From NCBI GenBank assembly GCA_013373205.1, contig JABXIG010000015.1:62001-126000 (forward strand): 64,000 nucleotides of DNA, given 5' to 3'. Within the stretch, counting starts at the first letter, position 1; each line of letters starts with the position of its first letter. Below the pieces are notes generated by a model. It was not told where the DNA came from and did not search any database. It saw nothing but the letters and a program-made list of their open reading frames with translations. Positions 40,878 through 45,636 of this stretch are shown here, in pieces. Origin of the DNA: Methylocystaceae bacterium (GTDB taxonomy: Bacteria; Pseudomonadota; Alphaproteobacteria; Rhodospirillales; Terasakiellaceae). A program made the position numbers and the translations under genes.

Positions 40878-42056
40878 ATGATAACGCATTATCGCCTCGG
40901 TCAGGATAAATTAACCATTGGCCGCAAAATTCTGGAATTGAACTGGGGCTTCGTGCTGTTGCTGATCATAACCGCCAGCGTCGGTTTTGCCATGCTTTAT
41001 TCTGCAGCCCCCGGTGACCCTTCGATCCCCGGTTCCGTCGGCAGCTGGGATCCATGGGCAAAACGCCAGTTAATCCGTTTTGGGGGCGGGCTTGTCATTA
41101 TGTTCGTGGTGGCCCTGACTGATATTCGGATATGGCTACGCTATTCCTACATTCTATACTTTATCGCCCTTGGCCTGTTGGTCGGCGTAGAAGTCAAAGG
41201 TTCCATCGGGATGGGGGCGCAACGCTGGATCAGTTTGGGTTTTTTCCAATTGCAACCGTCTGAACTCATGAAAATCACCATCATTCTGGCTTTAGCGCGT
41301 TATTTTCATGGCCGATCCCTGGAAGAGATTCAAAGCATTCCTTACCTGTTTGTACCGCTTTTCATGGTGGCGGCCCCATCGGTCCTGATCCTGCGCCAAC
41401 CTGATCTGGGCACAACCTTGATGTTGATTTTGGGCAGTGGCGTCATCTTCTTTTTAGCAGGTGTGCGTTTATGGAAATTTGCCCTTGTCGGGGTGTCAGC
41501 CCTGGCCGCTATACCGGTAGCCTGGCAATTCCTGCACACCTATCAGAAAAAGCGGGTCCTGACCTTCCTGAACCCGGAAAACGACCCCTTGGGGGCTGGT
41601 TATCACATCATGCAATCCAAGATTGCGTTTGGGTCCGGCGGCATGATGGGCAAAGGTTTTGGACAAGGATCACAAAGTCACTTGAATTTTCTGCCAGAAA
41701 AACAAACCGACTTTATCTTTACCATGCTGGCCGAAGAACATGGGCTTGTTGGTGGATTGGCTGTCATCGGGCTTTATCTGTTACTGTTGATCTATGGCTA
41801 TGCCATCGCCATGCGTTCCAGAAGTCAATATGGCCGACTGGTTGCACTGGGTGTAACAACGACATTCTTCCTGTATATTTTCATCAATATTGGCATGGTC
41901 ATGGGTTTATTGCCCGTTGTCGGTGTGCCGTTGCCGCTAATTTCCTATGGTGGAACGGTGATGATTTCTATCCTGTTCAGCTTTGGTCTGTTGCTAAGTG
42001 TTTCCATTCACCGTGATATGACCATCGGTCGTAAGGGGGAACATGATGATTTTTAG
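40878..42056 (+). CDS. rodA: RodA peptidoglycan glycosyltransferase (SEDS family)
   Basis: A 392-residue SEDS polymerase with about ten membrane helices. Conserved loops include WISLGFFQLQPSELMKITII, RQPDLGTTLM and VVGVPLPLISYGGTVMI, and the functionally important Asp of SEDS proteins lies in the ENDPLGAGYH loop region. It forms the elongasome synthase with PBP2. Last gene of mreBCD-mrdA-rodA; its stop overlaps the convergent gene by 4 bp (TTAG), leaving no room for a terminator. Confidence 0.96.
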   Translation: MITHYRLGQDKLTIGRKILELNWGFVLLLIITASVGFAMLYSAAPGDPSIPGSVGSWDPWAKRQLIRFGGGLVIMFVVALTDIRIWLRYSYILYFIALGLLVGVEVKGSIGMGAQRWISLGFFQLQPSELMKITIILALARYFHGRSLEEIQSIPYLFVPLFMVAAPSVLILRQPDLGTTLMLILGSGVIFFLAGVRLWKFALVGVSALAAIPVAWQFLHTYQKKRVLTFLNPENDPLGAGYHIMQSKIAFGSGGMMGKGFGQGSQSHLNFLPEKQTDFIFTMLAEEHGLVGGLAVIGLYLLLLIYGYAIAMRSRSQYGRLVALGVTTTFFLYIFINIGMVMGLLPVVGVPLPLISYGGTVMISILFSFGLLLSVSIHRDMTIGRKGEHDDF

Positions 42057-43753
42057 AGGGTGATGAGTTTTTCCGGGGAAACAGGGATAACCTTGCCCGG
42101 ACGACGAACTTCTTTGGCCAACGCCCGACCATTAATCAAACTGGCCCCTTCACGTAAGGCATTCTGTAAATCGTTTTGGTCACGCAGGCCAAATGCATAA
42201 AAAGAGGCCCCGTGCTCGCCCGCGAACTGATGAAGATCAGCCAGATCCTGTTTCACTTTTCGTACCTGCAACCCTGTTGTCGCCGATGCCTGTACGTCAC
42301 AGCTTAAAAACTGTAATCCAGCATTGTTCACCAGAGATCGACTAAGGTCACCAAGCTCACATCGCAAACCAAAGACCTTGAACTTGTGTTGATGGGCCTT
42401 GATCGCAGACTTGATATGCTGAAGTGAAGTATTCGATCTAATCCCGATGATTTCAATCTGAACAGACTGCCTGAAATCACCCTGCAACTGACGCAATGGT
42501 TTTAAGGGCGAAGTTCGTTTTGGTGCGAGAAGACTATGCAGATGAAAGGGCAGGATAATCACTTTCTGCTCAATATCTTTTGTTGCCTGAATATGGCGGG
42601 CTGCTTGACTTGCAAGGATACCGTCCATTTCCTCAATCATAGGATCTGGACAACCCTCATAGATTTTGTCACCAAAACTGATTGTGCCATGCAGGTCTTT
42701 ACGATATGGACATCCCGCATAGCTATTGATAGCCCGGCTCGCACGATCCCAACAGGGTCGAAAAACCAGACTGAGCGTACCAACCGGATTGGGTTTCACT
42801 GCATCCGGTTCCTGGGCTTTTGCTTTTGGTTTGGGTTTTTCTCTGGTTTCGGCTGTTTTCCCTACAGCTTTATCGGTGATAAAATCCCCCCAGGCGACCT
42901 CAGTTACCCCATCATTTTTATGATCAACCCCATCATCTGATTTCCAGTCCTGCTGTTCCAGAACAGGTTTGGCTGGTTGTTCATGCTGCATAATTTTTTC
43001 TTTGATCGGGTTGTTATGTTCCAGTTTCTGCCATTGCCCTTGGGTTTGTTCTTTGCGTTGATGGACCTGTTCTTTCCAGTCCCCCAAGTCAACATCATCT
43101 TGATCGATATTTTGTTCAACCCATTCATCAGACCCTTGGGCTTGAACCACTTCGCCTTTTTCCCAATCCACATTAACCGGACCATGGATATTGGCTTCAC
43201 GCACGAATTTGATGGTTTTTTTGGCTTTGCTGAAATTAAAGCTGCCATCTTCATTAAACATCTCGTCCGGTTCAATTTGTGCAACGGGCACATTGATACG
43301 ACGTTCTCCGGTGATGTAGCGATCCCCGAGCAAACGTTCCCCAATATCATCAATAATATCCATGGCTGCGTTATATTCAGCCACGGGATCTTTGTTATAA
43401 ACGTGGAAAATATAAAGCGAACGCACACACATAAACCCCGTGCCCTTTTCCCCGCACCGGGTTTTTAAAATCCCTTCGCAAACCGGGGCGACACTATCGC
43501 GCAGTTCCGCCATGATGGCTTTTTTAAAATCGCTGGTGTCTAACAGGTAGGATTTCGAGCCATGCCGGCCCTGCTGCACACTTAAAACATTATCAGCTGA
43601 AACGGTTGGCCCTTTTCCGAACTGCTTTTCACGTTCCAACTGTTTTGCAAATTGTTTGGCAAATTCGCCTAAGCCACCGTCATCAGGCAACGTCTCTTCA
43701 TCTTCTTGATACCCGAATAATCGATCCGTAAGAGTTTTTAAAAAACTGGCCAT
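42053..43753 (-). CDS. Unrecognised two-part protein with a degenerate EAL-like C-terminal domain
   Basis: A 566-residue soluble protein. The N-terminal part (about 1-185) is a distinct fold with KSYLLDTSDFKKAIMAELRD and two cysteines (CEGILKTRC); I do not recognise it. Residues about 190-330 are low-complexity, acidic and glutamine/lysine-rich. The C-terminal 230 residues follow the EAL order, but every catalytic position is replaced: FRPCWD at the EAL site, ELGDLS in place of DDFG, LSCDV for the iKiD strand, FGLRDQNDLQNALREGASLI for the EGVET helix, and NGRALAKEVRRP for the GY strand. It could be a cyclic-di-GMP receptor or scaffold without hydrolysis. It is convergent with rodA and upstream of a PAS kinase on the opposite side. 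Confidence 0.7.
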   Translation of the reverse strand: MASFLKTLTDRLFGYQEDEETLPDDGGLGEFAKQFAKQLEREKQFGKGPTVSADNVLSVQQGRHGSKSYLLDTSDFKKAIMAELRDSVAPVCEGILKTRCGEKGTGFMCVRSLYIFHVYNKDPVAEYNAAMDIIDDIGERLLGDRYITGERRINVPVAQIEPDEMFNEDGSFNFSKAKKTIKFVREANIHGPVNVDWEKGEVVQAQGSDEWVEQNIDQDDVDLGDWKEQVHQRKEQTQGQWQKLEHNNPIKEKIMQHEQPAKPVLEQQDWKSDDGVDHKNDGVTEVAWGDFITDKAVGKTAETREKPKPKAKAQEPDAVKPNPVGTLSLVFRPCWDRASRAINSYAGCPYRKDLHGTISFGDKIYEGCPDPMIEEMDGILASQAARHIQATKDIEQKVIILPFHLHSLLAPKRTSPLKPLRQLQGDFRQSVQIEIIGIRSNTSLQHIKSAIKAHQHKFKVFGLRCELGDLSRSLVNNAGLQFLSCDVQASATTGLQVRKVKQDLADLHQFAGEHGASFYAFGLRDQNDLQNALREGASLINGRALAKEVRRPGKVIPVSPEKLITL

Positions 43754-43821
43754 AGCTGACAGCCCCTAATGTCGCGCACTACAATTCTGAAATTGATGGC
43801 GAACCTATTGATTTCAAGACA

Positions 43822-45636
43822 TTATGCGCTTGGGAAAGTCGCTGTAAAGGTGGAGCCTTTATCCAGTTCAGAACGTACACTGATAGTTCCGTTCATATTT
43901 TCAACCATAGCCTTAGAAATACTTAACCCCAGTCCGGTCCCCCCTTTACTGCGTTGATCGGAACTATCTGCCTGAATAAACTTGTCAAAAATCCGATTTT
44001 GCATTTCTTTAGCAATACCCCGCCCGGTATCAACGATTGAAATTTGCACTTTACCGCTGACTTGTTTGCAGCGAATTGTGACCGTATCATTTTCATTGGA
44101 AAACTTGATCGCGTTGGACAAAAGATTGGATATGACCTGCATTAAACGATCCGAATCGGCAATAACCGATAAATCATCGCCATCGTGATCGTAACTGAGC
44201 GTCACATTATACTGTTTTGCATAAGCTTGATGATTTTCTACAGCTTGGGGTAAAAATTCTCCCAACGCAATTGGGCGCAAGTCAAAATCCATCCGCCCGG
44301 ACTGCAGCTTTTCCATATCCAGAATATCATTTACCAATAAAACCAAACGATTGGAATTATTATTGGCCACCTGCACCAGTGACTTTGCCTGATCGGACAG
44401 TTCCCCACCGTAATGTCCATTCAGCAGCCCAATGGCACCATGAATTGCCGTTAAGGGGGTACGTAACTCATGGCTGACGATTGAGGTAAATTCTGATTTC
44501 GCCTGTTCCAAACGCTTTAGTTCGGTCACATCTGTATGGGCACCCACCAAACGTATGGCCTGCCCCTTTTCATCACGTAAAGCTTCTGCGCGAGCCAGCA
44601 CAAATACCGTATGACCGTCCTTATGGCGCATACGCTGCACCATTTCAAAACGATCCGTTTCCCCTCTGAAGTGACGCTCAATGCCATCCATGACTTTTAG
44701 GCGATCTTCTTCAAACACCAAGTCCGCCCAACTATCAAAACGATTAATAATCTCATCATCACCATAGCCCAACTGCGCTTTCCATTGCGGGGAAAACCAG
44801 ACTTGATCTGTACGTAAGTCCCAGTCCCAGATCCCGTCTGATGTCGCGCGAAACGCCATGGACATAATTTCTTCCTTACTGCGCAAACGTTCCTGATGCT
44901 GGCGTTCTATGGTGACATCCTGAATGATGCCAAATAATCCCTGCACGGCATTGATGTTATTTTTTTCACAGACCGCACGGATCACCACATTGCTGATGCC
45001 CCCATCACTACGCAGCAGGCGGGCTTCGGTATCAATTTCTTTTCCTTCCTGAATTGCTTCCTGAATCAGTTCCCAAAGACGGGTCTGGTCTTCGCCAAAA
45101 AAAGCATCGATAAAATCATCCAGCGTAATATGCGACTTATTTGGCTTGCGCCCATAAATATTGAACACTTCATTCGACCATTGCAAAAAGCCGCTGGAAA
45201 TATCCAGATGCCAATGCCCGACACGCGCAGTTGTTTCCGCCATTTCCAGTAACCGGATATCATTTTGCGCCCGGATTTCGCGGTTCTTTGCCTCTGTCAC
45301 ATCGCGTGCAACCGCATAAATCAAATCAGAATTTTCGTCGCTCACATGGGCGCGCCATTGCAGCCAAACATGATGCCCATCTTTTGTTTTATAGCGGTTT
45401 TCAAAATCGATCACCTTTTTCCCAAAGGCTAAATCCTCCAGCACCATCTGGGTGGCTGCACGGTCATCAGCATGAACCAAGTCAACAATGGGTATCGACA
45501 GAAGATAACTATCTTCATATCCAAGAGTCTTTTTCCAGGCCGGGTTGACCTGTTTAAAATAGCCATCTGTTCCGGCGACACATAACAGGTCGAGGGAATA
45601 TTGATCTAAAGCATCAAATGCGGTTTCTTTTGTCAC
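43822..45636 (-). CDS. Cytosolic triple-PAS sensor histidine kinase
   Basis: A 604-residue kinase with three PAS/PAC units (about 5-125, 130-250, 255-370), each ending in a DVTE-type linker (ARDVTEAKNRE, IQDVTIERQ, HTDVTELKRLEQ). HisKA follows with the H-box FTSIVSHELRTPLTAIHG near residue 380, then HATPase with LLSNAIKFSNEND, SIVDTGRGIA and RSKGGTGLGLSISKAMVE. No membrane helix or receiver domain, so it senses a cytoplasmic cue (redox, ligand or light are typical for PAS). No response regulator is adjacent. The dead-EAL gene is 68 bp downstream on the same strand and may be cotranscribed. Confidence 0.92.
   Translation of the reverse strand: MTKETAFDALDQYSLDLLCVAGTDGYFKQVNPAWKKTLGYEDSYLLSIPIVDLVHADDRAATQMVLEDLAFGKKVIDFENRYKTKDGHHVWLQWRAHVSDENSDLIYAVARDVTEAKNREIRAQNDIRLLEMAETTARVGHWHLDISSGFLQWSNEVFNIYGRKPNKSHITLDDFIDAFFGEDQTRLWELIQEAIQEGKEIDTEARLLRSDGGISNVVIRAVCEKNNINAVQGLFGIIQDVTIERQHQERLRSKEEIMSMAFRATSDGIWDWDLRTDQVWFSPQWKAQLGYGDDEIINRFDSWADLVFEEDRLKVMDGIERHFRGETDRFEMVQRMRHKDGHTVFVLARAEALRDEKGQAIRLVGAHTDVTELKRLEQAKSEFTSIVSHELRTPLTAIHGAIGLLNGHYGGELSDQAKSLVQVANNNSNRLVLLVNDILDMEKLQSGRMDFDLRPIALGEFLPQAVENHQAYAKQYNVTLSYDHDGDDLSVIADSDRLMQVISNLLSNAIKFSNENDTVTIRCKQVSGKVQISIVDTGRGIAKEMQNRIFDKFIQADSSDQRSKGGTGLGLSISKAMVENMNGTISVRSELDKGSTFTATFPSA

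Follow-up and report, generated by a model that had tools for sequence, protein, structure and literature searches.

The window analysed here, a stretch of 64,000 nucleotides, comes from a marine alphaproteobacterium of the genus Terasakiella (Rhodospirillales, Terasakiellaceae), to which T. brassicae also belongs. Its minus strand carries an intact open reading frame of 566 codons which starts with ATG and lies between rodA and the gene of a PAS histidine kinase. The features of the locus are collected in Table 1.

Table 1. Features of the 566-aa gene and its neighbours (positions in the window; residues of the 566-aa protein)
Feature	Positions	Strand	Basis
566-aa coding sequence: degenerate GGDEF, Trp-array linker, degenerate EAL	42053..43753	-	open reading frame, intact in four congeners
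Shine-Dalgarno-like AGGGG, 9 nt upstream of the ATG	43763..43767	-	read directly
Residues 2-14 (ASFLKTLTDRLFG), short amphipathic segment, candidate membrane anchor	43712..43750	-	lead only
Degenerate GGDEF domain, residues 53-200	43154..43597	-	hhalign
Predicted-disordered linker, residues 190-321	42791..43186	-	Trp positions and pLDDT
Degenerate EAL barrel, residues 322-556	42086..42790	-	profile comparison, AlphaFold2, Foldseek, VIA, joint alignment
Triple-PAS HisKA/HATPase histidine kinase, 68 bp upstream, conserved neighbour	43822..45636	-	domain search and synteny
rodA, convergent to the 566-aa gene, stops overlapping by 4 bp; neighbourhood not kept in T. brassicae	40878..42056	+	

The first-pass annotation had placed the gene 68 bp downstream of a triple-PAS kinase on the same strand, and this pairing is conserved. 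Four congeners carry orthologues at 39-53% identity, every one beside the PAS kinase, which shows that the gene encodes a maintained protein. The order rodA, 566-aa gene, kinase, TPR gene and ispE is identical in the window and in G001, G004 and G005. In T. brassicae (G003), the block from the 566-aa gene through the kinase and TPR genes to ispE is located elsewhere in the genome, away from rodA; the kinase thus accompanies the gene in all four congeners, but rodA only in three of them. In G002 the kinase begins 10 bp after rodA and the 566-aa gene is absent between them; a search of this genome returned a paralogue only and no orthologue. Coupling to the kinase is therefore not obligatory. 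The PAS kinase is a constant neighbour of the gene, not an obligate partner, and the proximity to the elongasome is incidental.

The C-terminal part of the protein had been said to follow an EAL phosphodiesterase over some 230 residues, and structure prediction bears this out. The AlphaFold2 model rests on a three-sequence alignment, and its confident part is limited to about residues 322-541; the pLDDT of the EAL region is about 75-90. The top Foldseek matches are EAL domains (E 1.9e-9), and superposition by VIA on the EAL domain of BifA gives a Z score of 18.6 at 3.4 Å over 229 residues, which identifies an EAL-type TIM barrel fold. Profile-profile comparison agrees with the model: an alignment of 22 relatives matches the genuine EAL domains of the own genome at 95.6% over 219 columns, where cross-controls stay at 0.2-0.5% (0.2% against GGDEF) and shuffled EAL alignments at 2% or less. 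When the family profile is run against PDB sequences, the best matches are FimX of Pseudomonas and Xanthomonas (E 1e-7 to 3e-4); these are the only EAL structures below E 0.01. The Pfam EAL family (PF00563) does not match the 566-aa protein at E values up to 10 and finds only 6 of the 22 family members, weakly (best 2.9e-5). Searches of Pfam, NCBIfam and the PDB with the 566-aa sequence alone returned nothing relevant.

The residues that an EAL enzyme requires were located in an alignment that also included FimX and 11 canonical EAL domains. Replacements occur at the Gln of YQP (R332), the Glu and Leu of EAL (A346 and C348), the Arg of EALxR (Y350), the Asn of VNxS (P402), the catalytic Lys (S484) and the Gln of QGY (N541). 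The EGVET motif reads F-G-L-R-D (521-525), such that its first Glu becomes F521 and its second R524. DDFG corresponds to GDLS (468-471) in a register which is uncertain in detail: D469 is possibly retained, and the FimX profile alignment would instead put R464 in the place of the second Asp. The residues kept are D486, G522, G542 and E434, the first Glu of ExTE. The catalytic and metal-binding set (EAL, N, ExTE, DD, K, E and Q) is thus broken, and its replacement is common to the 22 family members. Since almost every catalytic and ligand position has been replaced, the main observation of the first-pass annotation, a catalytically dead EAL barrel, holds. Its statement that all positions had changed is accurate for the motifs it named, with the exception of G522 and possibly one Asp, and goes too far for E434 and D486, which remain. 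Loss of catalysis is strongly implied by these residues. The positions corresponding to the FimX ligand site (Q461, E475, L477, R479, K616, E653 and the Gln of QGY) are likewise all changed, which makes classical c-di-GMP binding unlikely. Judged from its residues, the protein would not turn over c-di-GMP in either direction and would probably not bind it classically.

Replacement in the altered pocket is not random. Across the 22 members, the 13 lost canonical positions have a lower mean entropy than columns drawn at random (P 0.004), also when only core columns serve as reference (P 0.02). The dominant replacements are specific: Asn to P402 and Ser to H404 in 21/22 members each, Lys to Gly or Ser at 484 in all 22, and Gln to R332 in 16/22. 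R464 is present in 20/22, and position 521 is aromatic or His. The EAL (β-2) and DD positions, on the other hand, have drifted freely in the family; the line between conserved and drifted positions was drawn post hoc. A re-conserved pocket would be accounted for by a new ligand or by salt bridges with a stabilising role.

The N-terminal domain had been described as an unrecognised fold; by profile homology it is a degenerate GGDEF domain. In hhalign, 37 aligned sequences of the domain match 30 genuine GGDEF domains of the own genome with a probability of 94.2% (score 49.2 over 78 columns; E 1.2e-7, a single-pair E-value), and the same comparison with the 22-sequence alignment gives 85.2%. Control alignments (EAL, reversed GGDEF and 100 column-shuffled GGDEF) reach a score of at most 16.8 and a probability of at most 1.1%. 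In the family profile search, the FimX structure 4j40 aligns weakly across its own degenerate GGDEF domain. Structure prediction did not confirm the fold. The full-length model shows, at low confidence, an order of secondary structures compatible with a GGDEF fold; folded alone, the domain has a pLDDT of 53 and no significant fold match, with LapD and PleD among weak matches only. The GG(D/E)EF signature is absent: it reads CVRSL (109-113) in the 566-aa protein and is GTDFF-like in some relatives. Pfam GGDEF (PF00990) does not match the protein, and it finds 2 of 22 relatives with a best E of only 0.13. With the N-terminal domain assigned in this way, the 566-aa protein becomes a dead GGDEF-EAL tandem. 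Its N-terminal half is the better conserved, the closest orthologue (G004) sharing 66% identity there versus 43% in the C-terminal part. Ahead of the domain, the amphipathic segment at the extreme N-terminus constitutes a possible membrane tether, a lead. Amphipathic scores of 18 selected family members exceed those of 116 control open reading frames (Mann-Whitney p 1.7e-5), a p value which is optimistic since the members are related and selected.

Between the two domains lies a charged linker rich in Q, K, E and D, predicted to be disordered (pLDDT about 20-45). It had been characterised before as glutamine/lysine-rich, which is correct but misses a periodic series of tryptophans at 197, 211, 226, 241, 270 and 288 (spacings 14, 15, 15, 29 and 18). 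Such linkers are otherwise hard to align across the family. In 29 proteins, Trp makes up 3.8% of linker residues versus 0.9% elsewhere, about a fourfold difference; an enrichment of this kind is unusual for disordered regions. Successive tryptophans are 14-16 residues apart in 41 of 69 cases. A hydrophobic residue (L, I, V, M or F) follows at +3 in 48 of 89 cases, against 12.6 ± 3.2 expected; none of 1000 shuffles reaches 48, although this test overstates independence because the proteins are related. No other offset stands out. The window copy has the regular spacing, but the +3 hydrophobic residue is clear in only two of its six units. Some EAL-bearing members with short linkers (e.g. L016, L019 and L025) lack linker tryptophans. 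Among the loci examined, arrays of three units are confined to family members, except for one 106-residue frame without family similarity.

The family is widespread across the class and largely missed by Pfam. At E 1e-8 it is present in 58 of 289 sampled alphaproteobacterial genomes (about 20%). Three loci outside the alphaproteobacteria (L108-L110, E 1e-7 to 2e-8) have canonical GGDEF/EAL-type domains and were not counted. Domain content varies between members. L028 (527 aa) fuses a receiver domain to the pseudo-GGDEF and pseudo-EAL domains, a FimX-like layout without PAS; L099 has a clear PAS fusion, L100 a weak one that stays under Pfam's cut-offs. Six pseudo-GGDEF proteins of about 260-330 aa (L026, L029, L030, L031, L034 and L035) have no EAL domain, and in these Trp-rich repeats, mostly of the W-x-x-hydrophobic type, form a C-terminal tail. 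The gene of L031 adjoins an apparent fabZ-lpxA-lpxB cluster. The own genome also encodes a paralogue, L039 (C59:88208-89797), of 530 aa and 24% identity, which the kinase does not adjoin. Its linker contains five tryptophans, some of them in units of the 'DWQKN' type, and its N-terminus (MFNWIKKAKTLFS) is basic and amphipathic; G001 and G002 have related copies. The literature searched, which is only part of the whole, contains no paper on the family.

Several known proteins resemble this arrangement in part. FimX (Pseudomonas, Xanthomonas) is a degenerate REC-PAS-GGDEF-EAL regulator of type IV pili. Though catalytically dead, it binds c-di-GMP through its EAL domain (PMC8389850). The 566-aa protein shares with FimX the succession of a degenerate GGDEF and a degenerate EAL domain and has in it the best PDB sequence match of its family (E 1e-7), and relatives resemble FimX further in bearing an N-terminal PAS or REC domain. 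The 566-aa protein differs in that its own chain contains neither REC nor PAS, in its long Trp-repeat linker and in the loss of the residues of the c-di-GMP site. A search for type IVa pilus partners in the genome revealed neither a clear PilB nor a small PilZ protein: T2SSE gave a single partial match, in a 350-aa frame, and the one PilZ match lies within a frame of 804 aa; a FimX-type pilus link was rejected for want of a clear PilB/PilZ partner set. As REC-PAS, ligand residues and PilB/PilZ partners are lacking, we do not file the protein as a FimX. LapD (Pseudomonas, Vibrio) is an inside-out c-di-GMP receptor, a transmembrane protein with a degenerate GGDEF-EAL tandem and a periplasmic output. 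It too is a degenerate tandem devoid of catalysis, and its EAL domain superimposes on the 566-aa model with a Z score of 16.3; however, no transmembrane or periplasmic part is apparent in the 566-aa sequence, and the ligand residues are lost. YdiV and CsrD are EAL-type proteins which work by protein binding. They offer an analogy of protein-protein contacts in place of c-di-GMP turnover, but their domain layout is other and they are likened by function, not by sequence.

The origin of the domains, the loss of the catalytic residues, the periodicity of the tryptophans and the synteny with the kinase are demonstrated. From these we lean, with modest assurance, towards a double pseudo-enzyme derived from a FimX-kind tandem GGDEF-EAL protein, that is, a non-catalytic adaptor with a Trp docking array, an optional pseudo-EAL module and a likely kinase input. 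Both the cyclase and the phosphodiesterase site of the ancestor have disappeared, as homology and the residue tables show, and the present protein would act as a cytoplasmic adaptor, possibly tethered to the membrane. The pseudo-GGDEF domain would be its conserved core, and the W-x-x-hydrophobic motifs, about 15 residues apart on a flexible linker, could serve as multivalent docking sites. The pseudo-EAL barrel would add a second, optional interaction module with a re-specified mouth. In Terasakiella the adjacent triple-PAS kinase is the likely source of input, which in relatives would be supplied by PAS or receiver domains fused directly to the same module. Points against the adaptor include G002, which has the kinase without the gene, the C59 paralogue, which has no kinase beside it, the window copy, in which just two of six Trp units have a clear +3 hydrophobic residue, and the pLDDT of 53 for the N-terminal domain. 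In a bolder form that we advance tentatively and regard as doubtful, a dead cyclase with its Trp docking array and a dead phosphodiesterase rebuilt around a new, conserved pocket for some ligand besides c-di-GMP would make up a class-wide multivalent hub, fed by PAS or receiver domains.

Other explanations attribute a ligand to the barrel. It might be a receptor for some other anionic ligand, whose binding switches the adaptor. The mouth does present a new conserved set (R332, P402, H404, E434, R464, G/S484, an aromatic residue at 521, R524 and N/D541), and the low entropy and specific replacements of the lost positions point the same way. Yet the conserved Arg, Glu and His may be salt bridges replacing the metal centre, the set was picked post hoc, the β-2 EAL and DD positions drifted and no ligand is seen, which leaves this reading rather unlikely. 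A FimX/LapD-kind receptor, which performs no catalysis but still binds c-di-GMP through its EAL domain and relays the signal, had been proposed at the outset. FimX is the closest solved relative and binds c-di-GMP despite its dead EAL domain (PMC8389850), and the own genome is rich in c-di-GMP enzymes, in which 44 regions pass the cut-off for GGDEF and 22 that for EAL. The proposal is weakened because the ligand-site residues that FimX keeps are all changed here: Q461 to R332, E475 to A346, L477 to C348, R479 to Y350 and K616 to S484, together with a Glu of the loop-7 pair to R524 and the Gln of QGY to N541. We consider such a receptor distinctly improbable.

The remaining explanations turn on genomic context and divergence. 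A link to cell elongation had been suggested, in which the protein would be an elongasome scaffold, co-regulated with or bound to RodA/MreB. Apart from its adjoining rodA in the window and three congeners (G001, G004 and G005), the evidence runs against it: the gene lies on the opposite strand and is convergent, the T. brassicae pair sits away from rodA, the rodA neighbourhood of G002 is the same but lacks the gene, and rodA is 92-95% identical in the genus versus 39-53% for the 566-aa protein. Such a scaffold is barely credible. That the protein is a decaying relic under relaxed selection would fit its rapid divergence (39-53% identity within the genus) and its being missing in G002. But the frames are intact in four other species, many residues are invariant, the N-terminal part retains 66-73% identity with the closest orthologue, the pocket is re-conserved and the family is long-lived across the class, all of which renders decay very unlikely. 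The non-catalytic adaptor is the reading we consider most likely.

Surveys count degenerate GGDEF-EAL proteins by means of Pfam, and among such proteins FimX and LapD are important regulators. A family largely invisible to Pfam yet present in about one fifth of the sampled genomes is therefore likely to be missing from c-di-GMP censuses. The Trp array, common to EAL-bearing and EAL-less members, provides a concrete experimental handle, and the re-conserved pocket makes it possible to test whether a signalling barrel has switched its ligand. Lastly, the own genome apparently holds a second, separate lineage of degenerate EAL proteins. At C56 (L090:8962-11519, about 168961-171518), two adjacent proteins of 433 and 419 aa carry EAL matches below Pfam's cut-off (29.5 and 26.6 bits); an N-terminal region precedes the EAL part in this pair, which the family profile does not reach.
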